Shown: positions 6,802-39,453 of the stretch, in pieces | Position numbering within the stretch: position 1 is the first letter of the stretch | Layout: every line of letters begins with the position of its first letter | NCBI GenBank assembly: GCA_020831485.1 | Contig: JAFIGG010000032.1 | Location: 1-39,453, forward strand | Reading direction: 5' to 3' | Length of the DNA: 39,453 nucleotides | DNA from: Opitutales bacterium | GTDB lineage: Bacteria > Verrucomicrobiota > Verrucomicrobiia > Opitutales > Oceanipulchritudinaceae | Translations under genes and position numbers: made by a program | Notes under the pieces: model-generated | Seen by the model: the letters and a program-made list of their open reading frames with translations, nothing else | Told to the model about the DNA's origin: nothing | Databases searched by the model: none

Positions 6802-9800
6802 ATGAAGGTATATCTGTCTCTGTCTATCGTTGCATCTGTGTTGTTGTCTTCTTCCGCGAGCTTGCAAGCTGCGTTAAATTTTTCCCACTCTGGCCAAACG
6901 GTGGATTCCGGTGATTGGGCTTATTACGAGGTGGCTGTTCCCGCTGGCGCAGAGGGCTGGCGCATTGTGCTGGAGAGTGATTCGGAAGAACTGGCTTTGG
7001 GACTTAGCGAAGGCGCCGAACCGACCAGCACAACAACGACTGTGGAATTTGTCGGTGATACCCGATCCTGGACTCTTACCCGTACGCAAACTCAAGTCAG
7101 TGAAGGCAGCTGGTATATCGGTGTTCGCAATACGGGTGACTCGGCTGCCACATTCAATCTCTACAGCGAAGAAGCACCTGCTGTTCGTGAATTGAACTGG
7201 GACAATGGCTATGGGGACAATGCCTTTGTGGGGACGATTGGTGGTTTTTATCATTTTACTGTGTCCAGCCAAAATACCACTTATGGAGCCTGGCGGCATG
7301 CGCTGTCTTTGGCAGAGGGCAAGGCATTGCTGCGAACCCGTAGAGGGGCGGCGCCGACGACTAATTCTAGCATCTATGATAGCGGTGTCGTCGAAGACGG
7401 CGCGGGCATTGTCATGGGCCTGGGCACAAGCGGTGTTAACGCCCAGACTTGGCACCTGCATGTGTATGTGGATCCGGGCGCCGATTGGTCGCTGACAGCT
7501 GGGGACATTCCGATCACCGACTTGGGTGAGCTGGCTGCAGACGATTCCAGCAGCGAAGGCTTTGTCATGCCGGTAGAAGGGGTTCGCTATTTCCGCTCGA
7601 CGGTACCTGAGGACGCGCGAGCATGGCAGGTATGGCTGAAACCGGATGCGTCCAGCTCTGGCACTATGGAGCGTGAAATTCACCTGCGCAGCAACCTCGC
7701 CCCGGCCCCGGCCACCGACAGCGGAAACTGGGATAATTTTTCGGCTCAGTATGATGTGCGTGGCATCGGCCAGGACCTCTACGTGCCGGGAGAAATCAAT
7801 CCTGGCGGCGGAGATGTCTATTTTCTTGCAGTGAGGGGCGAGCCGGGAGAAAGCCTGTTTCTGTCTTCGCGCCAACGGTCCGCCGAAAGTCTGGCGTTTG
7901 GTCTGACCACTCCTTTAGTTGATAACGAAGGTTCACGGTTTCAGGTTTACCGCGTCGACAGCCAGCCGGTCGATATCCTTGGTTGGGAGGTCACGGTTCT
8001 TCAGCAATCCGGAGATTCCTTCATTTCTGCGCGTCAAAACGAGGTGGGCAATGCCCGCCGTAATGTTGCCTTCAGTGAAGTCGAGGGTGCTGACAACTCC
8101 TTTACTCTGGTCCGTCCGGACCTCAGTGACGGACCCTACTACCTCACGGTTTACAGTCAGGGCGCCGCCAGCTATGAGCTGATGAACCGGGCTCCAATTG
8201 TTTCAAATTTAGACTTCAATGATACAGTAATCAACGACGATCCCGACCGTGCGGGTTGGCGTTATTATCAAATGAACGAGAGTGAGGATCAACTCGCTGG
8301 ACTTGGCTGGATGTTGGAATTGGCAGATCAAGTTCCCGGCACCCGGATTGCCATTCGGCAAAATGACCTGCCCGGTGAGCGCAGCTTCCGCAACGGTGGA
8401 AACTCTCAGACTCTGGCGCGAATCACGGAGGAAAACAGTAATGGCTTTCTCCAGCGTCCTGGTCACCAGAATGAGACCTGGTACATCGGCATTTATATGC
8501 CTGACGCCGCCTTGGGTGAATTCGAACTGAACTCAGGCGAGATTTCCGTGGCGACTTTGGATGCCGACAATGTGGTTGACCAATCCTTCACTGATCTGCG
8601 TCCGAGCGAGTGGGTCTTTTACCGCTTTGAAATTGAGGAAACCGTCAACGGCCACGAGGTCTTGGGCTGGGAACTGGATGTTTACAACGAGGCCAACAAC
8701 ATGCCGCGCATGGTGCTGCAGAAGGCAAGTCTGCCAGCGGAAACCTTCGCGAGCTTGGCGAATTTCGGACGGGGAACCAGCTGGGGGGATGGTCAGCGTG
8801 CAACCGCACGGACCGATTTTACCGGCCGGGCTAATCCGGCGACCAGTGGCTTCAGCGAGCGGGAGATTATTTCTGTTGCGATGGGGCAGCCTTTGGATGC
8901 CGGCACCTACTATGTCGGATTCCGCAATACGAATTCAACCGACACCGCCGACTTTAGCTGGAACAGCCGCCTTATTGGATATGAAGGCTCTGGTTTTGGT
9001 TATGAGATTAAAGCTCTGGATTTTGCGGATGGATCGTCGGGAGAGAGTTTTCTGAATGCCCGCGGGGTGAGCTACTATTACGTGGACATTCCTGAGGAAA
9101 CTCCCAGTTGGCGGGTTCACCTCGAACTGCTGGGTGAAGAAGATGCCAGTAGCCTGTATATTCGTAAGGATTTCCTCCCAAATATCTTTACCCGCAGTGA
9201 GTCCTTTTTGAATCCTGCACGGCCTTTGGCCAGCAGTTATGTCATTCCTCCCAGTTCATTTATGGTTCAGAGCGACGGCCATCAGGTGAAGCAGGATCGC
9301 AGTGGTGACCAGTGGTTCGATTTTTGGGTTTCACGGACAAGCGGAATCTTGGATGCCGGACGCTATTACGTCATGGTCGTCAGCTCCGGCCAAGACCCTT
9401 CGGCGAATAACCGGATTGGCACCGGTGCCATTGAATACAACCTGCATTCGTTGGGAGAAATTCCGGTAACCCACTTGGGTACTGTGACGGAAGCAACGCT
9501 TGAATCTATTGGCCAGTCCTACCCGACGGGTGGTATCAACTATTACACCTTTGATGTGGATCCCGGCTTGAATGCGGTGACATTGAGGCTAGAGGGCTTG
9601 GACGGGAATCCCTACTTGAGGGTGCGTGAGGAGCATATTGCCCCGTCCTTGCTCCGGAGGCTGCCAGCGGGCGCTGGAGTTGCAAACTCGTATGGACAAT
9701 ACAGCGGTCGATCCTTCCGCTATGGCGATGCACAAGTCATCTATTTGCCGGATCCGGACTTGGAGGGCTACGCAATTGCAGTGGCCGCACAGACGACTTC

Positions 9801-12800
9801 AGGCGGTGCAGGTGAATATAATCTTCTTGTCGAGCCGGTGATTCCGTCAGTTGCGAATTTTGATGCTTTCAGTGATTCTGTTGAAGATCTTCCCAACAAC
9901 GAATGGGTGTATTATGAAGTTACCGTTCCTGATAATGCGGATCTTCTTGGCTGGGAGGTTCGCGTAGACAACTGGGAGGGCGCGCGGCCTTACATAGTGA
10001 TTCGGCGGGATGCCTTGCCGGACGATACCTGGATCAACAATGCAATCAATATGGGTGGTGGCACCAGTTGGTCCAGTGGTGGTTTTGCGGTGACGGGCGC
10101 CGCTTCCGTTAATACCAGGGACTGGTCAGGTCGGCACGCATCGTCTACGGGTAGCCCTTACGAGAGTTATCTGCTCTCTTTCCCGCTTGGTCAGCCTTTG
10201 CAGCCGGGTAGCTATTACATCGGCTTCACCAGCGTGAGTACCTCCGCGACCAGTTTCAGTTGGTCAACGGCAGCCATTGGAACTGAAGGTTCAGGCTATA
10301 CACATGAAGTCCAGTCAATAGATTTCGATGGTGAGAGCAGCAGTGCCTCCGGACAGCTGAATCCACGTGAGATTCACTACTATGCAGTTGAGATTCCAGA
10401 GAATACCTACCGCAGTTGGCAACTGGAACTGCGCCTGGCTGAACCGGAACAGGAAGCCCGCATGTTTGTCCGGCGTGGGATGCTGCCCAACTCTCAAGCA
10501 AGCAGCAGTGCACAGGCGAATTTGAATTCAACGGTGGCGGCACCTCCGCAGTTGCAACTGGACAAAACCGGGGATGAACACTTTGTGCTTTGGCCTGCGT
10601 CCGGACAAGAGTTCATTGCCGGCGGAACCTATTACATGCTGGTTGCCGGAGAAGGTGAGGAACCGGATGGCACTCGCATTGGCGAAGGCCCCATCGATTA
10701 TGAGTTGATCAGTCACGGTGAAGTTGAAATGGAGGACCTCGGTCTCATCGCAGGAGGCAGCCAGCTGACGCGTTCCGGCAGCTACGGTTCAGGTCAACAG
10801 AGCTACTATCAGTTCGAACTTGATGCAGGCATCGAACTGCTGCAGCTGGAGTTGAGTGACAGGATAGGGAACCCCCGTATGTATCTGGTTGAGGGCGCAT
10901 TGCCGTCGTCGGTGCAAACCAACTACGGTCTTTATAGTGGCCGCAGTGCAGGCTGGCAGGATAACGAAAGAATCAATGTTCAGGATCCTGCTGCCGGTGT
11001 TTACACTCTGGTGATTACGCACGCGAGTGGTTTTGGTGACGGGTTTAGTGAGGATTCCTACACATTGTCGATTCGCGACGATGGGCCACAGACTATTCTC
11101 AATATCGATGGCTTTGTTGCTGAAGATGTGTTTGTTCAGGACAGTAATGACTGGGCTTATTACCGCGTCACCGTGCCGGAGCAGATCGATGGCGAGGAAT
11201 TGCTCGGCTGGGAAATTCGCGTGACCGAATGGAGTGGCCAAGAGCCGCCGGTAGTAGTGGTTCGCAGGGACCAGTTGCCTGAAAATGCCAGCACAACAAG
11301 TGGCAATGTCAGTATTGCCGGGAGTGCGACCAGCTGGAATTCCGGTCAGCAGATTGTAATGATCCCACCTTCTGCGAATCATACCTGGCGGGACTGGACT
11401 TCACGTCCCTTCAATGCCGACGGGACTCAACAACATGAACAAATCCTGTTTTCGTTGCCGATGGGGCAACCGCTTCAGCCCGGTGAGTACTACATTGGTT
11501 TCCGTCCGCGGGGCGACACAACCAATCTGACTTTCAGCTGGAGCAGTCGTGCAATAGGGTCCGCTGGTTCCGGCATGAGCCTGGAAGTGGCTCAAATCGA
11601 ATTTGAAGATTCGGTCTCAGGCAGTCTCGCACCTCGCGAGGTCGCTTATTATACAGTTGAAATCGAAGAGGAAACGCCGAGCTGGGAAATCGAGCTGGAG
11701 CTGCCAGCAGGACATGAAGCTCTACTCTACATTCGTGGGACTTATCTGCCGAACTCGCGCACTACCAGTTCATCGACAGCGGATCCTTCTCTTTGGCAAG
11801 GGCAGAGCAATATTAATCAGGCTCCTCAGGTGCGCCTGGATGAAAGGATCAATCATCGCTTTGTCATGTGGCCACGGTTCGGAGAGGATTACCTTTTACC
11901 GGGAACTTACTACCTGATGGTTGTTGGCCAGGGCATTGAGCCAAGTGATGGAAATCGCATTGGTGAGGGAGAGATCTCTTATACCCTGCACAGTCGCGGC
12001 GCTGTTCATCCACATTCCCTCGGAGTGATGGGCAATGATACTAGCATTGAGGATTCCCGCAGTTATGTTGCGGGACAATTTGTTTATTATAGTTTTGAAG
12101 TCGAGGAGGGCACGGACTCCGTTGAATTGCGCCTGCTCGACCGCGTTGGCTCACCACGCATGGCCGTGGTCGAGGGCTCGCTCGGAGCCCGGCAGCTATA
12201 TCTGTCCGGATCCAATGCAATCATTACCCACGGCCATTACAGCGGCCAGACTCAGAATGTATGGCGGGATGATGAATTGATAACTTTACCGAATCCGGAG
12301 CCAGGAGAGTACACCATTGCGGTAAGTCACGGGGCGGCGCCAAATTATGGAAATGGCAGTTTTCGTCTTCAGGCTTCGGGCAAAAGTGCGCAGCCCTTGC
12401 TTTGGGGTGGGGGCGGAGACTCCTGGATCGGTTCACTTGTTCAAGGGCAGAGTGATTTCTTTCAAGTCGAGTTGACGGATCAATTGGAAGTCATTGTCGA
12501 GGATGTGCAGACTGAGATGCGTGATGTCATTGGCTGGCGCCTGCGTGCGCTGGAAAACGATGGTAGCGTGGAAATGCGTGTTCGCCTCGACAGCCTGCCG
12601 TTTGGCAGCGATACAGAAGGCGGCCAGAGTCGCTGGAGTCGAGGTTCCTTGTTGGTGGTGCCGCCGTATTTGGAAAGTGGAGACTGGTTTGTCGAGGTTC
12701 GCGGGATCGATAGCGCCAACGATTATCAGCTGATCAGCGAACCGGTTTTCGCGGAATCTGTGGAGATGAGCTGGACTATGCCTGCAAAGGATGAACAGAC

Positions 12801-15363
12801 CGATGATCCAGAGCTGGAAGACGGTATTTTTGCCGACTCCGCGGTATTGTCAGGAGGTGCCAGCGATGGTGGGCGTGATCTCGAAGTGGGTAATTTCCAT
12901 CTGTATGCCATTGAAGTGCCCGAGGACAATGGCGGCCTTTTGCGGGCCAGCTTGCGTAGCCTGAGCGGCGATCCCAACCTCTACATTCGCAAGGGTGCAT
13001 TGCCGACGGTGGCTCATGGCATTCCCAATAATTTTGGGCCTGGATTCGGACCCGTGGCTGATTTTATTCAAAACCGTCAAGCGATTGCTGAACGGGCAGC
13101 TTGGGTGCCTTTCGACGTGCGGGACAGTGCTGCGCTGGAGCCGGGTACCTGGTATTTGAAGGTTCATGCAGCCGGAACCAGTACGGCCCGCTACCGAATG
13201 CTTCTCGGTCACCATGCCGAACCGTTTGTCCGGGGTCTGGACCTTGCTGGCGGCAACCTCAGCAATCAGCAGTTGGATGCCCGTCATTGGCGCTACTACA
13301 GGGTGCAGATGCCAGAGAAACTTGAGGACCTGCCGCTGGAGTGGGAAGTGAGCTTCACTCAGCACTCAGGCTCGGTTACGATGTATGTCCGCGACAGCGC
13401 TCCCCCAGGTGTGTTTGGCAATGACAACCCCAGCTCGAGTCAGAACTTGCGGGATTGGCAAAGCGATGGAATGAATCCAAACGGTTACCATGGTTTCCGT
13501 TCGGCCAGCAATCCGGGAACTTATACCATGAATGGCGTGGGCTTGGTGCCTGGTGCGACATACTACCTTGGCTTTTACGCAGATTCAGATGCGAGCTTTT
13601 CCGTGGAGTCGGATATCGGGACAGAAACCATCGAGAGCATTTACGGTGCCATGGCACTGCTGAACGGAACCGGTGGCACGCTTGAGTTGGAGCTGCAGCC
13701 TGGTGAGGTGAGAACCTGGCGCATTGACTTTCCTGTCGAAGCAGAACGTTGGGAAAGTGTCGCCAGCAATAGTTCCAATATTGAGTTTTACCTGGGTCAG
13801 CATCGACGCCTGCCTTACTTGTTGGGCGATGGTAATAATTTTCGTAGCAGTGACGGAGGCGTGGACTGGGTAGAGGACTTTAATATTCCTTTCGGTATTC
13901 GTGGATTCGAGAACATCTACTACATGAGCGTGGTCAACACCGGAGATGCGCCTGAGTCCTTTACCTTCAGCGTCGATTGGCGCGATGAAGACGAGGACCC
14001 TGTCGATCCTGATCCACAGGATCCAGCGCCGGGTGATCCGCCGGTGATTGTCAGCCAACCCGCCAGCAGTGGTTTTGTCATTGGCTTGTCGGGTGTGCTG
14101 GAGGTGGAAGCGATGGATGCTGATGGCGGTTCTCTGGGATACACCTGGTTCCTCAATGGAGTGGAACTGGATGGGGATCGCTTTGTTCAGGACGATGAGG
14201 AGGGTCGCCTGACCATTTTGGATGTCAGTGCCAGCGATGCCGGCGATTACACTGTGACCGTCTCAAATAGCCACGGTTCGGTTAGTTCTGACCCTCTGAG
14301 TATTGAAGTCTATTCGGCTTATCAGATCGGCCTGCTGAATGAGCCATCTGCTTATTACGACTCCGGCGTGGAGAATACGTTTACGCTGAGAATTGAAGCG
14401 GATATGGTTGGCACGAGAGACTTGGAGAATGGCTTCATCGCAGTTTACGCCGTTCAGTCAGATGGCCTTTTGCCCGACGACCGGATCGGATTTATAATTC
14501 GGGATCAACAGGGGCACGAGGTTCAGGGCAGTGGCCTGCTCGAATGGCCCAGCGACGGCAATATGAGCATCGCCCGGGATGGGAGTTTTGATCTTGAGTT
14601 CACGCTTACATTCCCTGAACCCGAGGAATATCTGATTTTCCTGTCGCTTGGTGACCGGATCGAAGTGGGCGGTGATGTCTCTACGGTTACATTGCTCTCA
14701 GGACTGCTGGGAGACTTTCTGGTCCTCAGCGCCGATGAGCTCCGCCCCGAAATTACCACTCAGCCTGGACCGGCCACACAATCCGTGCTGCATGGCAGTC
14801 AGCTCAGTTTTGATGTCAGCGCCACCGGGCTTGGTGACCTTGAATACCGTTGGTTCCGTAATGGCAACGCTTTGACAGACTGGGCCACAGATTCCAAATT
14901 GCTTATTCCACAGGTAACCAAGTCCAGCGAAGGGACCTATAGCGTCGTGGTCCGCAATGCCTTTGGTGAAGTTGAGAGCAATGGAGCAGTGCTTCTGGTT
15001 GTTCTGCCTGAAGCCTTGCCTGATAGCTTTGGAGATGCCGAGATTGAAATCATCGATTTGCAGACCGGGTCCATACTTTACAACTCCGATTGGTTTGGGC
15101 TTTTTCTGGCATTTGAAAATTCACAGGGTTGGATTTATAACGAGGTTTCTGGGTGGCTTTATGTCTGGCCCGGGCAGGTTACTGGCCGCATGTGGTTCTG
15201 GGACCCCATTGCCGACTTTGTCTTCTACACTGACGAGGAGTTGCATCCTTTTGTTTACAACGAGGACATCGGCTTTGCTGTTTACTCACGCGGTGGTGAC
15301 GGGCGCCGCTACCTGATTGTTCTAAGCAGCCAGCAGGTTCTCGATTTGGATCTACAACCATAG
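6802..15363 (+). CDS. Giant secreted modular protein 1 (18 PPC-like units, two Ig-like domains, Trp-rich C-terminal domain)
   Basis: The 2853-residue protein begins with a signal peptide (1-23, cleavage after SLQA). Residues 24 to about 2397 hold 18 beta-sandwich units of 100-150 residues resembling pre-peptidase C-terminal (PPC) domains. Each shows a W-x-YY-x-V start, a GW or SW strand, a Y-I-R-x-x-x-LP segment and a G-x-YY-x-G/M-V end. Units 6-14 are three copies of a three-unit super-repeat. Then come an Asp/Pro linker (2398-2414), an Ig-like domain (2415-2505), a spacer domain (about 2506-2649), a second Ig-like domain (2650-2737) and the shared C-terminal domain (2738-2853). The ATG at 6802 was chosen because it starts the signal peptide; an ATG at 6772 or a TTG at 6673 are alternatives. 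No enzyme motif is seen. Function is unknown; a surface or matrix role is inferred. Confidence 0.85.
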   Translation: MKVYLSLSIVASVLLSSSASLQAALNFSHSGQTVDSGDWAYYEVAVPAGAEGWRIVLESDSEELALGLSEGAEPTSTTTTVEFVGDTRSWTLTRTQTQVSEGSWYIGVRNTGDSAATFNLYSEEAPAVRELNWDNGYGDNAFVGTIGGFYHFTVSSQNTTYGAWRHALSLAEGKALLRTRRGAAPTTNSSIYDSGVVEDGAGIVMGLGTSGVNAQTWHLHVYVDPGADWSLTAGDIPITDLGELAADDSSSEGFVMPVEGVRYFRSTVPEDARAWQVWLKPDASSSGTMEREIHLRSNLAPAPATDSGNWDNFSAQYDVRGIGQDLYVPGEINPGGGDVYFLAVRGEPGESLFLSSRQRSAESLAFGLTTPLVDNEGSRFQVYRVDSQPVDILGWEVTVLQQSGDSFISARQNEVGNARRNVAFSEVEGADNSFTLVRPDLSDGPYYLTVYSQGAASYELMNRAPIVSNLDFNDTVINDDPDRAGWRYYQMNESEDQLAGLGWMLELADQVPGTRIAIRQNDLPGERSFRNGGNSQTLARITEENSNGFLQRPGHQNETWYIGIYMPDAALGEFELNSGEISVATLDADNVVDQSFTDLRPSEWVFYRFEIEETVNGHEVLGWELDVYNEANNMPRMVLQKASLPAETFASLANFGRGTSWGDGQRATARTDFTGRANPATSGFSEREIISVAMGQPLDAGTYYVGFRNTNSTDTADFSWNSRLIGYEGSGFGYEIKALDFADGSSGESFLNARGVSYYYVDIPEETPSWRVHLELLGEEDASSLYIRKDFLPNIFTRSESFLNPARPLASSYVIPPSSFMVQSDGHQVKQDRSGDQWFDFWVSRTSGILDAGRYYVMVVSSGQDPSANNRIGTGAIEYNLHSLGEIPVTHLGTVTEATLESIGQSYPTGGINYYTFDVDPGLNAVTLRLEGLDGNPYLRVREEHIAPSLLRRLPAGAGVANSYGQYSGRSFRYGDAQVIYLPDPDLEGYAIAVAAQTTSGGAGEYNLLVEPVIPSVANFDAFSDSVEDLPNNEWVYYEVTVPDNADLLGWEVRVDNWEGARPYIVIRRDALPDDTWINNAINMGGGTSWSSGGFAVTGAASVNTRDWSGRHASSTGSPYESYLLSFPLGQPLQPGSYYIGFTSVSTSATSFSWSTAAIGTEGSGYTHEVQSIDFDGESSSASGQLNPREIHYYAVEIPENTYRSWQLELRLAEPEQEARMFVRRGMLPNSQASSSAQANLNSTVAAPPQLQLDKTGDEHFVLWPASGQEFIAGGTYYMLVAGEGEEPDGTRIGEGPIDYELISHGEVEMEDLGLIAGGSQLTRSGSYGSGQQSYYQFELDAGIELLQLELSDRIGNPRMYLVEGALPSSVQTNYGLYSGRSAGWQDNERINVQDPAAGVYTLVITHASGFGDGFSEDSYTLSIRDDGPQTILNIDGFVAEDVFVQDSNDWAYYRVTVPEQIDGEELLGWEIRVTEWSGQEPPVVVVRRDQLPENASTTSGNVSIAGSATSWNSGQQIVMIPPSANHTWRDWTSRPFNADGTQQHEQILFSLPMGQPLQPGEYYIGFRPRGDTTNLTFSWSSRAIGSAGSGMSLEVAQIEFEDSVSGSLAPREVAYYTVEIEEETPSWEIELELPAGHEALLYIRGTYLPNSRTTSSSTADPSLWQGQSNINQAPQVRLDERINHRFVMWPRFGEDYLLPGTYYLMVVGQGIEPSDGNRIGEGEISYTLHSRGAVHPHSLGVMGNDTSIEDSRSYVAGQFVYYSFEVEEGTDSVELRLLDRVGSPRMAVVEGSLGARQLYLSGSNAIITHGHYSGQTQNVWRDDELITLPNPEPGEYTIAVSHGAAPNYGNGSFRLQASGKSAQPLLWGGGGDSWIGSLVQGQSDFFQVELTDQLEVIVEDVQTEMRDVIGWRLRALENDGSVEMRVRLDSLPFGSDTEGGQSRWSRGSLLVVPPYLESGDWFVEVRGIDSANDYQLISEPVFAESVEMSWTMPAKDEQTDDPELEDGIFADSAVLSGGASDGGRDLEVGNFHLYAIEVPEDNGGLLRASLRSLSGDPNLYIRKGALPTVAHGIPNNFGPGFGPVADFIQNRQAIAERAAWVPFDVRDSAALEPGTWYLKVHAAGTSTARYRMLLGHHAEPFVRGLDLAGGNLSNQQLDARHWRYYRVQMPEKLEDLPLEWEVSFTQHSGSVTMYVRDSAPPGVFGNDNPSSSQNLRDWQSDGMNPNGYHGFRSASNPGTYTMNGVGLVPGATYYLGFYADSDASFSVESDIGTETIESIYGAMALLNGTGGTLELELQPGEVRTWRIDFPVEAERWESVASNSSNIEFYLGQHRRLPYLLGDGNNFRSSDGGVDWVEDFNIPFGIRGFENIYYMSVVNTGDAPESFTFSVDWRDEDEDPVDPDPQDPAPGDPPVIVSQPASSGFVIGLSGVLEVEAMDADGGSLGYTWFLNGVELDGDRFVQDDEEGRLTILDVSASDAGDYTVTVSNSHGSVSSDPLSIEVYSAYQIGLLNEPSAYYDSGVENTFTLRIEADMVGTRDLENGFIAVYAVQSDGLLPDDRIGFIIRDQQGHEVQGSGLLEWPSDGNMSIARDGSFDLEFTLTFPEPEEYLIFLSLGDRIEVGGDVSTVTLLSGLLGDFLVLSADELRPEITTQPGPATQSVLHGSQLSFDVSATGLGDLEYRWFRNGNALTDWATDSKLLIPQVTKSSEGTYSVVVRNAFGEVESNGAVLLVVLPEALPDSFGDAEIEIIDLQTGSILYNSDWFGLFLAFENSQGWIYNEVSGWLYVWPGQVTGRMWFWDPIADFVFYTDEELHPFVYNEDIGFAVYSRGGDGRRYLIVLSSQQVLDLDLQP
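8599..12435 (+). repeat. Three tandem copies of a three-unit super-repeat in giant gene 1
   Basis: Copies run 8599-9891, 9892-11136 and 11137-12435 (431, 415 and 433 codons). Each contains unit A (EW-x-YY start, GWE strand, GQPL and YY-x-GF end, then G-S-G), unit B (YY-x-V-x-I start, LPN segment, RIG-x-G-x-I/V-x-Y end) and unit C (YY-x-F start, HYSG- or YSGRS-like segment). The order A-B-C is kept in every copy. Divergence between copies is high, so these are old internal duplications. Confidence 0.8.
15013..15360 (+). other. C-terminal Trp/Tyr-rich domain of protein 1
   Basis: The last 116 residues contain NSDWFGLF, GWIY, GWLYVWPGQ, MWFWDP, FYTDEELHPFVY and GFAVYSRGG, closely matching the ends of proteins 2 and 3. 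I associate similar GWIY/WLWTS-type tails with the ends of many secreted proteins in Opitutae, so a sorting or surface-retention role is possible but unproven. Confidence 0.7.
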
Positions 15364-15416
15364 GACATTTTAACCGTCCTTATTCTCCGTTGTTCAGCGG
15401 GAATTGCCATGTTTAT

Positions 15417-15445
15417 GTTCCCGCACTCGTTTCGAGTGCGGGAAC
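15417..15445. terminator. Perfect 13-bp palindrome after giant gene 1 (repeat family A)
   Basis: Arms 15417-15429 and 15433-15445 are perfectly complementary around the loop TTT. It lies 53 bp after the gene 1 stop codon and could end transcription, although no T-run follows. The arm core CCGCACTCG is shared with the palindrome at 3813-3834, indicating a dispersed element. Confidence 0.6.
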
Positions 15446-15485
15446 CAATCCGGCGCACAAGTCCCCTGCATTTGCCGAGATTAAC

Positions 15486-15520
15486 TTATAAGCGCATTCT
15501 GTTTGGTATGCTTTAGAATT
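15486..15520 (+). promoter_or_regulatory. Shared upstream element of giant gene 2 (TTATAAGCG ... TTTAGAATT)
   Basis: TTATAAGCG (15486-15494) and TTTAGAATT (15512-15520) begin 26 bp apart. Giant gene 3 has the same TTATAAGCG and a TTTAG...AATT also beginning 26 bp apart (27347 and 27373), in an otherwise dissimilar region. This suggests a conserved promoter or regulator site. No clear -35 box is present. Confidence 0.35.
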
Positions 15521-15755
15521 TTTCATGGGGGCTTAGGGTGCACAGTAGAGGCGCTTGTTTTGGTATTAGTGAAACTAATAGGCGGAAGTGAATGCAGTAG
15601 CCTACCGCCTTCAGGGTTTTCTCTTGAAAGAGTTCCCGAGGTTCATGGTAGGATGGTCTGGTCGCAGTATTGCATCTGAAAATTCTACTCTGTTTTTTTC
15701 CTCAAGGGAGGGTTTTCATGGTGCTGTCAAACCACCGTTATCAGGCATATTTCTC

Positions 15756-27224: not shown

Positions 27225-27242
27225 TGTGAGGATGAATTCAGA

Positions 27243-27306
27243 GGGCGCGAGGGCGCACCCGACCCGCTAGACGGGAGGGTGGACGCCCTCGTCCGCCCCC
27301 TTTTCC
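27243..27306. terminator. GC-rich double palindrome after giant gene 2 (repeat family B)
   Basis: The stretch begins with GGGCGCGAGGGCGCACCC (27243-27260) and ends with a strong hairpin: GGGTGGACG (27277-27285), loop CCCT and CGTCCGCCC (27290-27298), with one wobble pair. CCTTTT follows at 27299-27304. This is a good rho-independent terminator candidate on the plus strand. A second copy of the same element lies after giant gene 3 at 39379-39426. Confidence 0.65.
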
Positions 27307-27346
27307 TAAGTATTGGCTAGGCAACCTTTACGGAGTGCTCATTCAG

Positions 27347-27396
27347 TTATAAGCGGGTATCCGAAGATCCCCTTTAGCAGAATTAATATTTTCTGC
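27347..27396 (+). promoter_or_regulatory. Shared upstream element and dyad of giant gene 3
   Basis: TTATAAGCG (27347-27355) is 254 bp before the chosen ATG. TTTAG...AATT starts 26 bp downstream (27373), the same spacing as before gene 2. The overlapping dyad GCAGAA/TTCTGC (27377-27382 and 27391-27396) could be an operator. Confidence 0.33.
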
Positions 27397-27600
27397 ACCT
27401 CCTTCACAGAGGGCTTCAAGTCAATATAAGAAAAATTTATCCCGAATTTAGGGTTGTCTTTGAATGGGGATTGGGCGCGAGCCCTTGAATCTGCAGGGGG
27501 GGTATTTGATAGTATGGGGCAAATTCGTCTGTTTGCTCAGCCCAATCTTGTGGCTGTGCCTGTGTCAGACAAAAGGAACTCAAACTCTATTGAGACCACC

Positions 27601-30600: not shown

Positions 30601-33600
30601 AGCGGCGAGCAGCGGATCTACGTTTCGAACCCCGAGCCGGGTCCGCTCAGCATTGCCGTGCATGCCGACGTGGTTGAATCCGATGAATACAGTCTGCGCG
30701 TCGAGGGGATTGAGGCCGAAACCGTGCCGATCGATGATTTTGAAACAACTGTAGAAGGCCTTTCGCCGGGCGAGTGGACCTTCTATGAAGTCGAGGTTCC
30801 GGACGACGGAACCTTCCGTGGTTGGGAAGTCTTTGTGCAGGACTGGGAAGGAGACTCGCAGCCGACCATAACCATCGGCTATGAGCACATCGCCACGTCA
30901 ACTTCCAACGAGGGCTGGCCTCCGACTATCGCTACCGGTCCGGCTAGAGCCAGTTTCACTACATCGCGTTCCGTTGCCGGTTCCGGGGCCAATTGGACAG
31001 GACTTCCAGAGGGCCTCGACGGTCGGGATCCGGAAGCATACCGCATTACCCTCGCGGAGGAGCGACCTTTGGTGCCTGGGACATACTACGTGGGTTTCAA
31101 AGCCGATGAGTCCGACGCTGAGGCGATAAGCTTTGATTGGACGAGTCGGGCAGTGGGTGATTATGAAAGCGGCTATTATTACGAGATTTTTCCAATCGAT
31201 TTTGGACGCCCCGCAGGCGGACAAATCGATCCGCGCGAGGTTCATTACTACCTCTTCGAGGTCGAGGAAGAAGACGAGCTTACAAATGTGCGCTTCAATC
31301 TGGAATTATCGGGCGAAGATGAAGGCGATGATGCCCAGCTTTACATCCGCGAAGGCTGGATTCCAAACACCTACGGCCAGTCAACCTCAGCCGCTGACCC
31401 GGCGCAGGCGACGGAGCCCCATCAAGTGCGGTTGAACAAAGAAGGGAATGACCAGTTCGTTCTCTGGCCACGGAACCAGGCAGAATATGTTCAAGAGGGC
31501 ATCTACTACCTCATGGTCGTGGGCGAAGGCCAGAATCCGGACCGCGACGAAGGAATCATCGGCGAGGGCAGTGTTAATTATTCGCTTAGTGCCGAAGAGG
31601 TCGCTCCCGATCATCTCGGAGTGCTCGACGTTGAAGATCCGATTGTAGAAACCGGATCCTACGAACCCGGTGAAGTCCGGTATTATCAGTTCGACCTTCC
31701 CGAGGGCGTCGAAAGCCTGCAGGTTCGGCTTGAGGATACGGATGGCGATCCGCTCATGACCCTGCGTGAGGGCGAATTCCCGTCCCGCATGTACAGCAGT
31801 TACTACGGTCACTTCAGCGGCTACAGCACAGCATTCGAACGACGGGACTCAAGTCTTATAACCATCGCTGATCCCGATGCTGGTACCTACAATGTTATGG
31901 TGGCTCATGGTGGTGGGACGGAAGCGAATCCGAGTGTTGCTGAAGGGAGTTATACCCTTAGGGTTGAAGCCACTGGTGCTGTTGAGATTCCCATGGATGG
32001 GTACAGCGATTCGGTTTCAGATCTGGGTGCCGGTGAGTGGGCCTACTACGTCGTCGAAGTTCCCGAAACGATAGAAGGCGAGGAAGTCCTGGGCTGGGAG
32101 GTCCGGGTGACCGATTGGTCGGGCGAAGGTCCGCCTTTAATGGCGATCAACCGTGGTTCGGTTCCTCCTGGAACAACGACCATCTCGTCTGCAGGGAGTT
32201 GGGATGAGGATGGTCAATGGATGTCAACCCAAGCTCACAACTGGACTGAACGGGATTTCTCGGCCGATGGCAGTGTCGAATACGAACAAATTGTTATCGC
32301 AACGGCAATGAGACGACCCTTGGAGCCAGGCACCTTTTATATTGGTTTTGAAAATACTGCAGACAGTGGTTCCGTTAGCTTTGATTGGACCAGCCGGGCG
32401 ATTGGACCGGAGGACTCCGGTATGAGCTATGAAGCAGACTTGATCGATTTTGAGGATGGCTCTACTTCGGGCAGTCTGGACCCACGGGAAATCGCCGTTT
32501 ATGCCGTGGATATTCCTGAGGAGACGCCTAGTTGGAAAGTGGAGCTCGACGTCGAAGACGGGCATGAAGCCTTGCTTTATTTGCGTCGGGAATATGTGGC
32601 AGACACCCGGTCAAACCGGACTGCCACGGGCAATCCGGATGGTAGCCTTGTTCAGATGGATACTCCGGGAAACCAGCATTTCGCCACCTGGCCCTCTCGC
32701 CATGATGAGTATCTGGAGCCGGGACGTTACTACCTGACCGTTGCCTCCGCCGGCCAATCTCCGTCCGACAATAACTGGATCGGGACCGGTGCCGTTGAAT
32801 ACACGCTTCGCAGCTACGGTGAGGTCGATGTGCACGATCTTGGGACTGTGGCTGCCGGAGTTGAGCTGACGGAAACTGATCGCAGTTACGACAGCAGTGA
32901 AGTTCACTACTACCGCTTTCAAGTTCCCGAGGGCTTGCCCGCCCTCGAATTGCAGCTGTTCGACCGCGACGGCTCGCCGACGATCAGTCTGCATCGGGAC
33001 GAGATTGCCCCCGGAGCGGAACGATGGGGATCGACGCTCGGACTCACTTCGGGTAATTACAGTGGGCGCTCACCGGAGTGGCAGTCGCAGGACTTTCTGA
33101 CTCTTGGAAACCCGGAAGCCGGGGTCTACACCATGGCCGTTGCTCATGGAATCGTGAGCGGAACGGGTGGCTATAGCCTCCGGGTGCGCGGGATCGAGCC
33201 GGCGGCTCTGGATTTTGCAGCTGCAGCCGATACTGTTTCGGGCGAAGTTGGAGAGGGTCAGAGCTCCTTTTATCAGACGGAAGTCGGCACCGAGGTCGAT
33301 GTCGGCGAGGGAGCCGAATCCCAAATGGAGGATGTCATCGGCTGGCGTCTGAGACTGCAGACGAGCGAAGGTGAAGCTGAAGCGCGCGTGCGATTTGGCG
33401 AGACGCCTCAAGGTGGCGACTTTGAAAACGATCAAACCCGCTGGCAGCAGGGAAGCTTGCTGATCGCTCCGCCGAACATTGAACCGGGCGAATGGTTTGT
33501 CGAAGTAAGGGGCGTGACCGCTGCCGAATACACCCTGGAATCACAGGCCATTACCCTGGATTCACTCGAGCGGGAAATCTGGGAAATGCCGGCGCGCGAT

Positions 33601-36600
33601 GAAGTATCAGATGCTCCGGGATTGGATGATGCCGTTTTTGGTGACAGCGGCATCGACGCGGCGGGTGAGCCACTGCAGGACGACGACCAGGGTGTCGATC
33701 TGAGCAATGGGGATTACCATCTCTACGCGATTGACGTACCGGAAAACAATGGTGGTTTGTTGCGGACCTTGCTCGAGTCGATATCCGGTGAGGCAGAATT
33801 GTATGTGCGCCCAGCATACCTGCCAACGGTGACGCACAACGAAGAAGGTGACGGCTTAGGTCCGTTGACGCTGCACCGTTTGACGGGATCGTCAGAGACT
33901 CAGCGCGGTAGTTGGGTGCCTTATCATGTTCTGGAGGACGAGAGGCTCGAAACCGGATTGTGGTTCCTGAAGGTCTATGCCGGCGGGGACACTAGTGCCC
34001 GTTACCGTTTGACGCTCAGCCACCACAATAAACCGCTGGTAAAAAGTCTGGCTGCAGATGGAGGAAATCACGAATCCGAATCGTTGAACGCAGGCGACTG
34101 GCGCTACTATCGGGTGACCTTTCCCGAGAATCCCGAAGATATGCCGGCCGAGTGGACGGTCGATTTTGACCGCGAGCAGGGCAGCCTTGAAATGTACCTG
34201 CGCGATTCGGCCCCCCCTGGATTCTGGGAAAACACGGGTATCAATTCACACACTAACCCCCGCGATTGGGATACTGAGGACCTGATAGTCGGACCCAACC
34301 AGCGTAGCTATGATGAGGGAGTTCACACTTTTGACGGTACCTTCCTGCGTCCTGGTAAGACCTATTACCTCGGCTTCCTTGCCGACAGCGACGCCGTCTT
34401 TTCAGTGAGTTCCGACATCAGCGTGGAAACAATCGAGCCGATCTATGGGTCGTCCTTTGACGTCCTCGAAGGGACCGGCGGTATGCTGGATGTCGAACTC
34501 GATCCGGATGAGGTTCGGACCTGGCGGGTCGATTTTCCTGCCGAAGCTCGGCGGTGGCGAGTCCAGGCCGAAAACAGCAGCGAGGTTGATGTCTACGTTG
34601 GTCGACACGCTTTCCTGCCCGATTTTTCCGGAACGGTTTCCAATTTCCTCGAGAGTGAAGGGGTGGAGGATTGGCAGGAAGATCGCCTGATTATTCCTTC
34701 GAGTCACCGTGATTTCCCGAACACCTTCTACATGACGGTTGAGAACACGAGTTCAGAGCCTCAAGCTTTCAGCCAGTTTCTCGACTGGCGTCAGGATGAC
34801 GAATTTAACATCAGCCTCGATATTGTAGGTGGAGGCAGTGTTGAGATCGATCCGGAGGATTACACTTCGGGAGACACGATCGAACTCGCTGCGACAGCGG
34901 ATCTAGGTTGGACTTTTTCAGAGTGGACGGGCGATGTTGAGTCGACTGAGAATCCACTCAGCCTGACTCCTTTCGAGGAGTTGGAGATCACGGCGGTCTT
35001 TGAGGAATTCGAAGGCATCTATATTGCTGAAGCGGAGGTTCTAACGGAGCACTTGATTGTTGGGGACGGACCTGGTGATGAAGTCGAGGTGGAAGTTACC
35101 ATTGTAAACACAGGTGATTCGGCCGATTCGATTACGCCGGAATTGAGCTTCTCGGTTGAAGATTTTGACCCGGTTGATCCAGCCGACTGGGAAGGCATTG
35201 CTCCCTTAGGTTCGGTCGAAGTGAACGCTGGTGAGACTGAAGTAGTAACCCTGACTTACAACATGGAGGATGTAACCATTTTCGATACAGGTGCCTATTA
35301 TAATGTTGAAGTCAACGGTATTGATGCCGGTTCATTTGTTGGGATGTATCTGTACTCTTATATGTATGCGGGTTACTATGCAGGTGAGATCCTGGCTGGG
35401 GAGACGGAGGTAGTTTCTTTCTACCTGTATGGACCTCCGGACGAAGATTTGGAGGTGACCGTTCCCCTGGCTGTTGATGGCGACACAGTCGATGATATGA
35501 CTTTGACTGCTCCCGAGGGAACATGGGTTGGTTATGAATCTTTTGAATACGCTTTCTCGGAACCGGGCGATCGGACTGTTACCGTTGCCAATATTGAGTC
35601 GGATGGTTCACCCATTACGGTGCTGGATCCGGCAGAGGTTCAAGGTGAGGTTGAAATCACCTCAGTAACAGCGCCTTCCGAAGTTAACGTAGGTGAAACC
35701 TTTACGGTCAGGGTTGACCTTGAGGAGACCGAGGGTGAACACGATACAAGCATCGAACTCGAGCTGAGTTTCAACGGTGACATCGTCGACACCGAAACGG
35801 TAGTGGTCGATGCCGGTGACACTGCTGTTGCAGAGCTGACACACACCTTTAGCACTGACGGCACCTACACCGGCGATGTCAATGGAGAGAGCTTCTCTAT
35901 CGATGCATTGTTGCCGGACTTGGAACTGGAATTCAGCAATCTTCAGGTTGGCTCAACGAATGTCTACTCGGGCAACTTCATCCGGGTGACCGCTGAGGTC
36001 GAGAATCTGGATTCGCTTGCCGGCGAGTTCGAGGCGGAGTTTTCGGTGGTGGACCCGGAAGGCACCTTTGACGGCGAGCCTTCGGAAGTCCATGAAGATA
36101 CTTATGTTGGCTGGCTTGAAGCGGAGGAGTCGAAGACCCTGAGCTTCTACTTTTATGCCGACGGCGGTCTGGATTATGAGGCCCAGGTGAGCGTTGACCG
36201 TCTCGATCCATTGACGGTCGAGATCGCTCCAGCCTGGTCGCAGTTTGGCTACGGCCACGGAAACAGAGGGATCGGTAACCCGGTCTCGGGCCCCTCGGTC
36301 CCTGTGGATATACTGTGGGAGTATGACATTGAAGGAACGTCTGAAGATGCCGTGGACTCTTCGCCGGTTGTCGCGGATGGAGTGGTCTATTTTGGCAGTT
36401 CACTGGCCCTTGTGCACGCAGTGGATGTGGAAACCGGCGACCCGGTTTGGGCCGACGAATTTGAAGCAGACGGCCCCGTAACGACCTCACCTGCGATTGC
36501 GGACGGAAGGGTCTTTGTGACGACTTCCGGCGAAGGGCAGGCCTCCCTGCATGCAATCGATGCCTCTGAAGGCAGTGAACTGTGGACTGTTGACGGTATT

Positions 36601-39366
36601 GCCGATGCCGCCTTGACCGACCCAATTGTTGCCGAGGACCACGTCTTCGTCGGCAGCGATGAGGGCAGTCTGCATGCCTATGATGTAGAAACCGGCTCTG
36701 AGGCCTGGCCTGAGTACGAAGCCGGCGATGCCATTGTGGCGACTCCCGCTTACGTAGAGGGTATCCTGTACTTTGGAACCTACAACGACGATGGTAGCGG
36801 TGCCATTCACGCGGTGGATGCATGGACAGGTACCAGTGCCTGGGAATCGCCCTATGAAACCGATAGCATAGATTCATCGCCTGCCATGGAACAGGTGTTT
36901 GGACTGGAGGGTTGGACCCTCTATGTTGGAAACTCTGCAGAAGAACTGCTGGCGCTGAATGCGGAATCCGGTGAGATGATTTGGGATGGGTCTTACGCGC
37001 TGGGTGGATCCGTGTCAGGATCACCGATGGTTGCGGGGCCGAATGTATTTGCGGTGACCACTTCCGGAGAGGTTCATAAGATCGACGCGGTGTCTGGCGA
37101 TGCCATCTGGGACACGCCTGCTTCTGTTGGGTCTGCTGTTTCACTGAACCCTGTATATGCCAACAGCTGGATCTACCTCGGCACCCTTGAGGGGCAGATC
37201 ATGGTGCTCCCCGGGAGTCCGGATGAAGCCCCGGCAGCTACGGTTTGGGACTGGGATATTGGCGCTCCGTTGAAGGCATCACCTGTAGTGTTTCAGGGGC
37301 AGGTATATGTGGGTGCCGGCGATGGCAATCTGTATGCGTTCCATACAATTGAGGATCAGGAACCCGGAGATCCGGAGGCACCGTCCATCGTAAGTCAGCC
37401 GCAATCGATCAGCGTTTTCGCTGGTGATCCTGCAGGATTCTTTGTCGAATTTGGTGGCGAGCCCCCATTTGAATTTGTTTGGGAGTTTGGCGAAGTTGTC
37501 CTCGAAGGTGAGGACGAGGCCTTCATCCAGCTGGATGATGTAAGCCTTGACGATACCGGATCCTATCGGGTGACGATCAGTAACGAGCATGGTGAAGTCA
37601 CTTCTGATCCGGCCACGCTGGATGTTTATTCCACTTATCTCATGGATACGGACTTTCCTGAAAGCCTCGTTGCAGAGCAGGAAACCGACTTCCAGTTCAC
37701 GCTAGAAACCGATGATGAGGGCACCACTGGCTTTGACGCCACCTGGATTCGTTTCGAGATCGATGGACCAGGCGAAGCGGCCATTATCGTTCCCGGGGAT
37801 GAGGCCCCGGAGGCTATCCCAGCTGGAGAGGTCGTCGGGCCTCCATCCGGCCTTCCGCTTCCGGCCCAGGTGGATGAGGTTTTGGATTGGGAAATCGTTT
37901 TCAGCGAGCCGGGTGAATACACCGTTACGCTGGAGCTGTTCACTGAGTTTGAAATGATGGGTGAACCCGATCCCCGCCCAGAACCAGGAAATGGAGAGGT
38001 GATACCCGTCTCGGACAACGGCGATGATACAGAGACCGTCGAAGTGTCGCTGGCAAGCTCCTCTGATACCCTGACTGTCGAAGAGCCTTCTTTGCCGTTC
38101 ATCGTAGAGCAACCGGAATCGGTCATAGCCCAGCTTGAACAGGGTGTTGAATTCACGGTTGAAGCCGGGGGTGATTCCCCCCTGAGTTACCAGTGGTTCC
38201 ATGATGAGGAAGCGCTGGATGGGGCGACTGATTCCACCTTGAACATTCCGGCTGCCTCCATAGAGTTCACCGGATCCTATACGGTCGAAGTCAGCAATGC
38301 CTTTGGCGAAGTTCTGTCCGACAGCGCTCAGCTTGACCTTCGCGCGCCGTATTCGATGGACGTGAATTATTCCGAACAGGTGCTTTCCAACGAAGATATA
38401 GATGTTTTCGTTGACCTGTATGCTGCAGGCGAAGGAACGGTCGGCTATGAAGCCGTGCGTTTCCAAGTGTCGGCCGATGGCCCCGGGGAAGTCACCTTTG
38501 TGGCGACGGATCCCGAAGGAAATACAGAAACCGTGCATGACGATGGCGAATGGGGACCCGAGGACGGTTTCCCGCTCGCAGCCGATCACGATGAAAGCTA
38601 TGAATGGATCCTGCACTTCAGCGAGACTGGCGAATACACCATTGGCTTTGAAGTCTTCAATGTGCTGGAGAGCGGCGAACTTGGAGAACAATTGATTGCA
38701 TTTTCGGTCGATACCGTTGAAGTCGAAACCCTGCCGCCGCCAGAGATCGTCGAGCAACCGCAGGACGTGACTGTGTCACACGGTGAAGGTTTCAGCCTGG
38801 ATGTGACTGCCAGCGGAGACGGCGATCTGCAATACCGCTGGTACCGCAGCGATCAACCCGTAACGGAGTGGCGTTCTATAACCAGCTACAGCATCAGCTC
38901 ATCCTCGAGTTCGCACGCAGGCTCCTATTATGTGGTCGTCGAAACCGAATACGGCAGTGTGCAAAGTGATACGGTTTCGGTCCAGGTAGAGATTCCACCC
39001 GAATTGCCGGAAGGCGTCAGCGATGCCGAAGTCGAAGAAGTGGATGAGGAGACCGGCAGGACCCGTTACAATTCGGATTGGCTCGGAGTATTCTATGCCA
39101 TTGAAGGAAGTGCGGGCTGGATCTACAGCGAACGCATCGGCTGGGTCTACGTTTGGCCTGGTCAGGCGTCTGGCAGCATGTGGTTCTGGGATCCGCTTGC
39201 GGATCTGATTTTCTTCACTGACGAGGAAATCCATCCTTTCGTCTACTCGGAGAAAGTCGGTTTCGCCGTATATGCCCGGGGTGGGGAAGACCGCCGCTAT
39301 CTGCACGTCCTCAGCGATGACGAGATCATTGATCTGGACCTGGAAGGGGAGGAGCCGGAGTTGTAA
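27601..39366 (+). CDS. Giant secreted modular protein 3 (18 PPC-like units, InlB-B-like, CARDB-like, PQQ-type propeller, three Ig-like domains)
   Basis: The 3921-residue protein starts with a long n-region and a hydrophobic signal core (about 33-51, cleavage after PVFA). Residues 52 to about 2400 are 18 PPC-like units colinear with proteins 1 and 2. An InlB-B-like repeat (about 2402-2470), CARDB-like sandwiches (to 2878) and a PQQ-type propeller (2879 to about 3250) with VYFGSS, VFVGSDEGSLHAYD and VYVGAGDGNLYAF strands follow. Next come Ig-like 1 (3260-3344), a spacer, Ig-like 2 (3499-3581), a second copy of the spacer, Ig-like 3 (3714-3801) and the shared C-terminal domain (3802-3921). The extra Ig-spacer pair distinguishes it from protein 2. 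The ATG at 27601 was preferred; the TTG at 27454 is an alternative. The protein is very acidic. No enzyme motif is recognised; an adhesive or matrix role is inference. Confidence 0.85.
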   Translation: MQNTIRYFSSTIFSAFSGGHLRYAGRSLWRKALSTVSCLGMGLVVGVPVFAEESFSTSGTLPAGEWTYETIEVPAESEGLRVVISSEDGDPELYLREGENPTESEYDYAGSSFSKETFTSTILVPADELSEGTWHIGAYNPDSQSLEYSLSAKEAPASIELDWDEGDGSNAFEVTDSDGGKYKFTIATRETQLGAWRQSLAVESGKAQLFVREHDPAAPDNYDLGSDLNEFGAGWVLPLDTENVSGTIWHITVAVEPGSDWSLVSGDVPVIDLGELAEDASSGSEAYDNADPDIPAGVIPPEGVRFFRTTLPQGTRAWRLWLQTEDGSDTWMRLFDLRAGQVPTPDSNGDWDSFSAYDEFRAEGQNLLVPPEIEAGEGVNYYVAVIADAGESFRLDSRQQPVTDVDFDDETTVVYGGDGSWFHTFRIADVPDDILGWEVTSLQESGDPFIAARRDEVASHRYSDAFSEVEDEVNNSFTFIPPELSDGTYFVTVYGSDDFTFRLRNGVPEVTTIDFESSTANDEPDRAGWRYYQMPESEDQVRALGWMLDLADHAPDTRIAIRRNDLPGSINYRTGGGSSTTTHVLEEGEHGYLQRPEHESDFYYIGVYTEEAALGNFVLESGAVEPPEVDLETPATEVEGLRPGEWAYFKFELPDTYDGHEVLGWELRSSRISGSLNGMLLRRDQLPKNTFSSSGIGSRTSWGSGDSSFSTLDWTRRQQTADGSTGGMERVISFGMGQPLEPGTYYMGVQADIWIDDPATFSWQSRLIGAEGSGFAYEIGELDYDGGVSSESLDPREVAYYTVEIGENVSSWRLRLDLPDEHEAHMVLRKDYLPSLEVQDTELWSNIYDPLGSIDDPSRDGRHVRLSRDGSEFYDLWPEEGEDYVEPGEYYILVVSEGQNPEGASQIGEGEVDYTLTSVGEVPVMDLGTVDAGEEIFESNRSFANGIDRNYYTVEVPAGALGVRIGIEDVQGAPEAGVIEGMVPPAMSNYGTYNTRSVEWSGEQRIYVSNPEPGPLSIAVHADVVESDEYSLRVEGIEAETVPIDDFETTVEGLSPGEWTFYEVEVPDDGTFRGWEVFVQDWEGDSQPTITIGYEHIATSTSNEGWPPTIATGPARASFTTSRSVAGSGANWTGLPEGLDGRDPEAYRITLAEERPLVPGTYYVGFKADESDAEAISFDWTSRAVGDYESGYYYEIFPIDFGRPAGGQIDPREVHYYLFEVEEEDELTNVRFNLELSGEDEGDDAQLYIREGWIPNTYGQSTSAADPAQATEPHQVRLNKEGNDQFVLWPRNQAEYVQEGIYYLMVVGEGQNPDRDEGIIGEGSVNYSLSAEEVAPDHLGVLDVEDPIVETGSYEPGEVRYYQFDLPEGVESLQVRLEDTDGDPLMTLREGEFPSRMYSSYYGHFSGYSTAFERRDSSLITIADPDAGTYNVMVAHGGGTEANPSVAEGSYTLRVEATGAVEIPMDGYSDSVSDLGAGEWAYYVVEVPETIEGEEVLGWEVRVTDWSGEGPPLMAINRGSVPPGTTTISSAGSWDEDGQWMSTQAHNWTERDFSADGSVEYEQIVIATAMRRPLEPGTFYIGFENTADSGSVSFDWTSRAIGPEDSGMSYEADLIDFEDGSTSGSLDPREIAVYAVDIPEETPSWKVELDVEDGHEALLYLRREYVADTRSNRTATGNPDGSLVQMDTPGNQHFATWPSRHDEYLEPGRYYLTVASAGQSPSDNNWIGTGAVEYTLRSYGEVDVHDLGTVAAGVELTETDRSYDSSEVHYYRFQVPEGLPALELQLFDRDGSPTISLHRDEIAPGAERWGSTLGLTSGNYSGRSPEWQSQDFLTLGNPEAGVYTMAVAHGIVSGTGGYSLRVRGIEPAALDFAAAADTVSGEVGEGQSSFYQTEVGTEVDVGEGAESQMEDVIGWRLRLQTSEGEAEARVRFGETPQGGDFENDQTRWQQGSLLIAPPNIEPGEWFVEVRGVTAAEYTLESQAITLDSLEREIWEMPARDEVSDAPGLDDAVFGDSGIDAAGEPLQDDDQGVDLSNGDYHLYAIDVPENNGGLLRTLLESISGEAELYVRPAYLPTVTHNEEGDGLGPLTLHRLTGSSETQRGSWVPYHVLEDERLETGLWFLKVYAGGDTSARYRLTLSHHNKPLVKSLAADGGNHESESLNAGDWRYYRVTFPENPEDMPAEWTVDFDREQGSLEMYLRDSAPPGFWENTGINSHTNPRDWDTEDLIVGPNQRSYDEGVHTFDGTFLRPGKTYYLGFLADSDAVFSVSSDISVETIEPIYGSSFDVLEGTGGMLDVELDPDEVRTWRVDFPAEARRWRVQAENSSEVDVYVGRHAFLPDFSGTVSNFLESEGVEDWQEDRLIIPSSHRDFPNTFYMTVENTSSEPQAFSQFLDWRQDDEFNISLDIVGGGSVEIDPEDYTSGDTIELAATADLGWTFSEWTGDVESTENPLSLTPFEELEITAVFEEFEGIYIAEAEVLTEHLIVGDGPGDEVEVEVTIVNTGDSADSITPELSFSVEDFDPVDPADWEGIAPLGSVEVNAGETEVVTLTYNMEDVTIFDTGAYYNVEVNGIDAGSFVGMYLYSYMYAGYYAGEILAGETEVVSFYLYGPPDEDLEVTVPLAVDGDTVDDMTLTAPEGTWVGYESFEYAFSEPGDRTVTVANIESDGSPITVLDPAEVQGEVEITSVTAPSEVNVGETFTVRVDLEETEGEHDTSIELELSFNGDIVDTETVVVDAGDTAVAELTHTFSTDGTYTGDVNGESFSIDALLPDLELEFSNLQVGSTNVYSGNFIRVTAEVENLDSLAGEFEAEFSVVDPEGTFDGEPSEVHEDTYVGWLEAEESKTLSFYFYADGGLDYEAQVSVDRLDPLTVEIAPAWSQFGYGHGNRGIGNPVSGPSVPVDILWEYDIEGTSEDAVDSSPVVADGVVYFGSSLALVHAVDVETGDPVWADEFEADGPVTTSPAIADGRVFVTTSGEGQASLHAIDASEGSELWTVDGIADAALTDPIVAEDHVFVGSDEGSLHAYDVETGSEAWPEYEAGDAIVATPAYVEGILYFGTYNDDGSGAIHAVDAWTGTSAWESPYETDSIDSSPAMEQVFGLEGWTLYVGNSAEELLALNAESGEMIWDGSYALGGSVSGSPMVAGPNVFAVTTSGEVHKIDAVSGDAIWDTPASVGSAVSLNPVYANSWIYLGTLEGQIMVLPGSPDEAPAATVWDWDIGAPLKASPVVFQGQVYVGAGDGNLYAFHTIEDQEPGDPEAPSIVSQPQSISVFAGDPAGFFVEFGGEPPFEFVWEFGEVVLEGEDEAFIQLDDVSLDDTGSYRVTISNEHGEVTSDPATLDVYSTYLMDTDFPESLVAEQETDFQFTLETDDEGTTGFDATWIRFEIDGPGEAAIIVPGDEAPEAIPAGEVVGPPSGLPLPAQVDEVLDWEIVFSEPGEYTVTLELFTEFEMMGEPDPRPEPGNGEVIPVSDNGDDTETVEVSLASSSDTLTVEEPSLPFIVEQPESVIAQLEQGVEFTVEAGGDSPLSYQWFHDEEALDGATDSTLNIPAASIEFTGSYTVEVSNAFGEVLSDSAQLDLRAPYSMDVNYSEQVLSNEDIDVFVDLYAAGEGTVGYEAVRFQVSADGPGEVTFVATDPEGNTETVHDDGEWGPEDGFPLAADHDESYEWILHFSETGEYTIGFEVFNVLESGELGEQLIAFSVDTVEVETLPPPEIVEQPQDVTVSHGEGFSLDVTASGDGDLQYRWYRSDQPVTEWRSITSYSISSSSSSHAGSYYVVVETEYGSVQSDTVSVQVEIPPELPEGVSDAEVEEVDEETGRTRYNSDWLGVFYAIEGSAGWIYSERIGWVYVWPGQASGSMWFWDPLADLIFFTDEEIHPFVYSEKVGFAVYARGGEDRRYLHVLSDDEIIDLDLEGEEPEL
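29524..33249 (+). repeat. Three tandem copies of the three-unit super-repeat in giant gene 3
   Basis: Copies run 29524-30762, 30763-32025 and 32026-33249 (413, 421 and 408 codons). The unit order A-B-C and the motifs (GEW-x-Y/F, GWE, SRLIG or SRAIG followed by G-S-G or similar, then RKDYLP-type and HFSG-type units) match those in genes 1 and 2. Confidence 0.8.
34804..37350 (+). other. InlB-B/CARDB/PQQ-propeller cassette of protein 3
   Basis: The order is the same as in protein 2: an InlB-B-like repeat opening with GGGSVEIDPEDY (from 34804), CARDB-like sandwiches (about 35010-36234) and a propeller opening with WSQFGYGHGN (36235 to about 37350). The propeller repeats carry the V-Y-x-G-x-x-x-G / A-x-D-x-x-T/S-G-x-x-x-W pattern of PQQ-type or BamB-like blades. 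Confidence 0.7.
39004..39363 (+). other. C-terminal Trp/Tyr-rich domain of protein 3
   Basis: The final 120 residues repeat the motifs NSDWLGVFY, GWIY, GWVYVWPGQ, MWFWDPLADL, TDEEIHPFVY, GFAVYARGG and LHVLSDDEIIDLDLEG. It is the best conserved segment among the three giants. Confidence 0.75.
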
Positions 39367-39378
39367 ACCCGATTTTAT

Positions 39379-39426: not shown

Positions 39427-39453
39427 AAATCTCTGAATCCTTTCAATCCCGAT

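Follow-up and report, generated by a model that had tools for sequence, protein, structure and literature searches.

Three giant, putatively exported proteins encoded in tandem in an Opitutales genome share a fixed array of 18 PPC-type units that occurs in other Verrucomicrobiota

The window analyzed here is a whole contig of 39,453 nucleotides from an Opitutales bacterium. It contains three consecutive open reading frames on the plus strand, which we call P1 (6802-15363), P2 (15756-27224) and P3 (27601-39366). The frames are intact, with the ends expected from an earlier first-pass annotation, and encode proteins of 2853, 3822 and 3921 residues, respectively. With coding lengths of 8.56, 11.47 and 11.77 kb, all three exceed the 5 kb by which giant genes are defined. 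As had been proposed, all three N-termini resemble signal peptides when read by eye (...SLQA/ALN, ...LAWA/GLD and ...PVFA/EES). The proteins are very acidic, with a pI of 4.28 for P1 and 4.05 for both P2 and P3, and each contains either no cysteine or one. The genes upstream of P1 encode a YmdB-type phosphoesterase, a glucose/sorbosone dehydrogenase, a BNR protein, a dicarboxylate symporter and a nucleoside transporter; none of these neighbors suggests a pathway, and no secretion or processing gene was found on this visible side of the locus, in agreement with the earlier reading. On the other side, the contig extends for another 87 nt beyond the P3 stop (39366-39453) and breaks off just after a palindrome, and the tandem may therefore run on past P3; the remainder of the assembly yielded no fourth copy of the array. 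The palindrome, GGGAGGGTGGACGCC(C)TCGTCCRCCC, is imperfect and lies shortly 3' of both P2 (27274-27298) and P3 (39403-39427). The genome contains six copies of its 14-base core and none of the reversed control; the palindrome is possibly a dispersed terminator-like element.

With respect to export, the genome has three secretin genes and two exosortases. By reading, no PEP-CTERM tail was found at the ends of the three proteins: P2 and P3 have acidic ends (...IIDLDLEGGEPDL and ...EGEEPEL), P1 ends in ...LDLDLQP, and there is no hydrophobic stretch. A search for the type IX translocon protein SprA (PF14349) gave no matches in 132 genomes, and gave none in the control genomes either.

P1, P2 and P3 are colinear homologues that align end to end, with identities of 41% over 2477 columns for P1 and P2, 39% over 3764 columns for P2 and P3, and 41% over 2451 columns for P1 and P3 (E = 0 in each case). 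We located the units of the array that they share using an iterative profile HMM seeded with four units, which converged on exactly 18 units in each protein. The array spans approximately the N-terminal 2400 residues and lies at 6892-13974 in P1 (residues 31-2391), 15834-22952 in P2 (residues 27-2399) and 27772-34776 in P3 (residues 58-2392), as delimited by iterative and unit-type profiles. Unit identity across the paralogues averages 43% where positions match and 20% where they do not, and thus chance can be excluded as the source of the identical order. The first-pass annotation had described 18 units in identical order and had named a lack of homology along the full arrays as grounds for rejection; we found the arrays to be homologous unit by unit.

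Rather than repeating one unit uniformly, the array consists of five unique units, three triplets of the form B-C-A, and four unique units. Positions 6/9/12, 7/10/13 and 8/11/14 are alike within each set (28-43% identity), and units 1-5 and 15-18 have at most 28% identity to every other position. A triplet is about 415-430 residues long, and the triplet block (units 6-14) occupies 8590-12375 in P1, 17553-21380 in P2 and 29515-33183 in P3. The block was defined in P1 by unit identities and unit-type profiles, with a fold prediction for its third triplet, and in P2 and P3 by iterative and unit-type profiles.

Several lines of evidence bear on the fold of the units. In Pfam searches, P1 and P3 match the PPC domain (PF04151) with scores of 50.4 and 63.9 bits, compared with a gathering cut-off of 25.9. 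No PPC domain is listed for P2; the Pfam model does not detect its units, which are homologous by the array profile. A model of the third P1 triplet, predicted from 11 triplet sequences, has a mean pLDDT of 80.9 and a pTM of 0.83, and a single unit of it matches the ColG collagen-binding domain (1nqj) with a Z score of 11.4 at 1.8 A over 89 residues; further matches are to 5sv5 (Z 10.3) and 1wmd (Z 8.6). As judged from this predicted fold and the Pfam scores, the units are PPC-type beta-sandwiches, which bears out the beta-sandwich array of the first-pass annotation. Two consecutive predicted units also fit the two tandem beta-sandwiches of the SIDT1 ectodomain (Z 12.8, 217 residues, 4.1 A); SIDT1, however, is a eukaryotic membrane protein with 11% identity to the triplet, and the fold alone is common to both. 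Jelly-roll matches to the triplet model were discarded as evidence because their rmsd exceeds 10 A. When the whole array was compared with the PDB by sequence, no match was obtained.

We mapped the protein-binding residues of the PPC domains of protease E495 (D26, D28, Y30 and Y/W65) onto the array units; by this uncertain mapping, the second Asp of the PPC-typical D-x-D-x-Y is missing from the corresponding stretch of almost every unit. No peptidase family is among the Pfam matches of P1, P2 and P3 at E values up to 1, indicating that these are not PPC-bearing peptidases. In the proteases that have been studied, the enzyme is followed by one or two PPC domains, whereas here there are 18 units in fixed order and no protease. 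The PPC domains of E495 bind proteins (PMC3327674), and the PPC segment of a Grimontia collagenase binds collagen (PMC6168687).

The three proteins differ in what follows the array. P1 has Ig domains (PF13927 and PF07679; 14038-14982), followed by a Trp-rich C-terminal domain. In P2 and P3, the array is followed by an InlB B-repeat, a CARDB domain and a PQQ/BamB-type propeller, an insert identified by Pfam at 23001-25475 in P2 and 34828-37320 in P3 and absent from P1, and then by Ig domains and the Trp-rich domain. P3 follows the P2 plan with more Ig-type domains; the last Ig domain lies at 26592-26828 in P2 and at 38740-38970 in P3, where it is predicted with a pLDDT above 80 nearly throughout. 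Thus, the domains listed in the first-pass annotation, including the Ig-like ones, are present, but for P2 and P3 that list was incomplete. The propellers of both proteins score above the Pfam cut-offs of PF13360 and PF13570. In contrast, the P2 propeller scores 138.1 bits against an NCBIfam equivalog cut-off of 285.2 bits for BamB, and it is embedded in a giant protein.

The Trp-rich C-terminal domain, at 15004-15360 in P1, 26850-27221 in P2 and 38992-39363 in P3, was delimited by paralogue alignment and profile searches. It is about 100 residues long, is 61-64% identical among the three proteins, confirming the common C-terminal domain noted earlier, and has the pattern GWY.S.WFG.F...GWIYH..HGWLYV...WFWD...GW.WT...YPF.Y. 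No relative was found in Pfam or NCBIfam and no convincing one in the PDB, where weak matches to Ika8 and XepA (E 0.03-0.04) were discarded. Its structure, predicted from three sequences, is of low confidence (pLDDT about 35).

We observed the Trp-rich domain on many unrelated exported Opitutales proteins. A three-row profile finds it in 35 of 132 Opitutales genomes, and a 20-row profile gives at least 12 matches in the window's own genome; some genomes have 12 or more copies. Among 30 sampled proteins whose end is visible, 25 have it no more than 20 residues from the stop, and in several other proteins it stands right behind the signal peptide. The domains with which it is combined include chondroitinase B, fasciclin, PQQ propeller, Ig and FN3 domains. 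One protein from another contig of the same genome (L009, 1441-3282, plus strand) has a signal peptide, then the Trp-rich domain, and then four fasciclin domains. The simplest reading of these sequences is that the domain may have a general role in attachment or sorting.

A survey of genomes for colinear homologues, which the first-pass annotation had proposed as a check on its lineage-specific family, revealed homologues well beyond the lineage. Profile searches detected the array in 5 of 273 genomes within the order Opitutales and in 14 of 388 sampled genomes across the phylum, ten of them strong (E < 1e-100) and four marginal; since these searches scored the two best candidates per genome, array copy numbers are lower bounds. 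The carriers belong to other families of the order and to two families elsewhere in the phylum, which lie outside the class by kinship label. Two of the relatives, identified in a scan of genome contigs, are the Opitutales MAGs JAFIGH01 (Super_Day6_Bin.11) and SLTG01 (CSSed165cm_93). Unit-type profiles indicate that the order u2-u3-u4-u5-(B-C-A)n-u15-u16-u17 is kept in homologues of four other genus groups. Most homologues have n = 3; n = 1 was observed in group G482 and, with a modified part after the triplet, in G063. The homologues vary in the number of leading u1/u2-like units, in n and in the attached domains, which include a Kelch propeller in the G010 homologue and InlB and other tails, as read in the sequences, in further homologues. 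The Trp-rich domain is absent from the array relatives outside this genome, which end in other tails.

The units best conserved between the window clade and other orders are u5 (47%), u16 (43%) and u17 (43%), compared with 21-36% for the others. These three units flank the triplet block or sit near its ends, a sequence pattern that would fit a spacer bounded by working parts at both ends.

Homologues elsewhere are single genes or unlinked copies, and no conserved neighbor gene was found among those examined, whose neighbors are unrelated. The side-by-side arrangement of three may be the only feature that is particular to this genome. In a relative from group G039 (L108, 3-5561, minus strand), an FGE-sulfatase domain and a PPC domain precede the array, and the gene adjoins a transposase-like frame. 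In a G010 copy (L030, 7247-14305, minus strand), the array starts mid-unit at an overlap with an opposite-strand TPR-like frame; here, either the gene is truncated or the assembly is chimeric.

A tree of 14 arrays places P1 with G039a, an array from another family, to the exclusion of P2 and P3 (support 100/99), and a tree of the N-terminal half agrees (99/98). Since P1 is closer to G039a than to either of its two neighbors in the locus, at least one duplication must predate the divergence of the two families, and P1, P2 and P3 are thus old paralogues and not a recent lineage-specific amplification. G039 also contains pieces of at least one further array copy, a follow-up search having added a third G039 piece, and because its assembly is incomplete, a loss of P2 or P3 counterparts there cannot be claimed. 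Given the homologues beyond the order, the conserved unit order and the two trees, we reject both the lineage-specific origin and the recent tandem duplication that had been proposed. That the proteins are giant, exported and of a surface or matrix type is, however, a plausible part of the earlier proposal.

We consider it about an even chance (probability roughly 0.5) that these proteins are stalks at the cell surface, constant in their layout, on which binding heads can be exchanged. The 18 PPC-type beta-sandwiches in fixed order would make up a semi-rigid rod, with the rigidity between units suggested by one predicted segment, and this rod would serve as a stalk at the cell surface or in a matrix. 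The conserved working parts would lie at its ends and the triplet block would be a spacer that changes length by whole triplets. The stalk would present heads that can be exchanged, here the InlB, CARDB, PQQ-type propeller and Ig domains and in relatives other domains, and the Trp-rich terminal domain would be the attachment or sorting end. Since relatives outside this genome lack that domain, either anchoring differs there or the domain is not the anchor proposed here. Two further points count against a stalk: secreted enzymes can carry PPC domains as parts that are only transient, and the relatives examined show no conserved neighbor gene.

It is distinctly less probable that the array is itself the working part, a multivalent scaffold whose units would weakly bind polysaccharide or protein and hold a cell or an enzyme cluster on a particulate substrate, with the heads adding specificity. 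The shared fold of the units and the collagen-binding domain, the known binding of proteins and collagen by PPC domains (PMC3327674, PMC6168687), the FGE-sulfatase domain on one relative and the chondroitinase B domain on one protein with the Trp-rich domain are all consistent with such a scaffold. The units, however, are not interchangeable, as they keep a fixed order throughout the phylum and are far more alike at matching positions than between positions; moreover, the D-x-D-x-Y stretch is not kept, as far as the uncertain mapping goes, and no catalytic domain was found in P1, P2 or P3.

Fainter still is the prospect that the three proteins co-assemble into an S-layer-like coat or an extracellular fiber as separate subunits that differ in their heads. 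The adjacency of three colinear paralogues, the conservation of the terminal units, at which contacts could be made, and an old divergence that is consistent with subunit specialization would suit such an assembly, but the single or unlinked homologues elsewhere indicate that three subunits are not needed, and no self-assembly domain of a known type was found. That an ordinary repeat protein was recently amplified in tandem, to little functional effect, as three genes in a row and the transposase gene beside one homologue might bring to mind, is highly improbable. The 39-41% identity among the three proteins and their intact frames of 8.6-11.8 kb speak against it, and it is already contradicted by the grouping of P1 with a gene of another family and the conservation of order across the phylum.

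The stalk reading can be carried further, though only tentatively: the array proteins might be a phylum-wide, unnamed family of surface fibers with a conserved blueprint of fixed terminal units, triplet-wise length control and exchangeable heads. In this lineage, a new Trp-rich terminal module, which would serve many other exported Opitutales proteins as well, might fasten them to the cell. As the first-pass annotation had anticipated, no Pfam or NCBIfam entry covers the overall plan, and no named family for array proteins was found in the libraries and open papers searched. The family thus appears to be unnamed, yet it is made of a known kind of domain and falls within a known class of giant secreted proteins. 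It resembles the giant genes (>5 kb) of Planctomycetes, Omnitrophota and other PVC bacteria (PMC5177795, PMC12057145) in size, signal peptide, mosaic of extracellular domains and patchy distribution, but differs from them in having a defined colinear array that can be traced across the phylum; likewise, P1-P3 showed none of the Rhs or beta-helix lyase domains that PMC12057145 describes in its PVC example.

With this analysis, three anonymous giant genes become a defined protein family whose blueprint can be tested and which offers a way to study how the Verrucomicrobiota surface is built. If the Trp-rich module is a sorting or attachment signal, it would allow part of the surface proteome that Opitutales export to be recognized by sequence alone.
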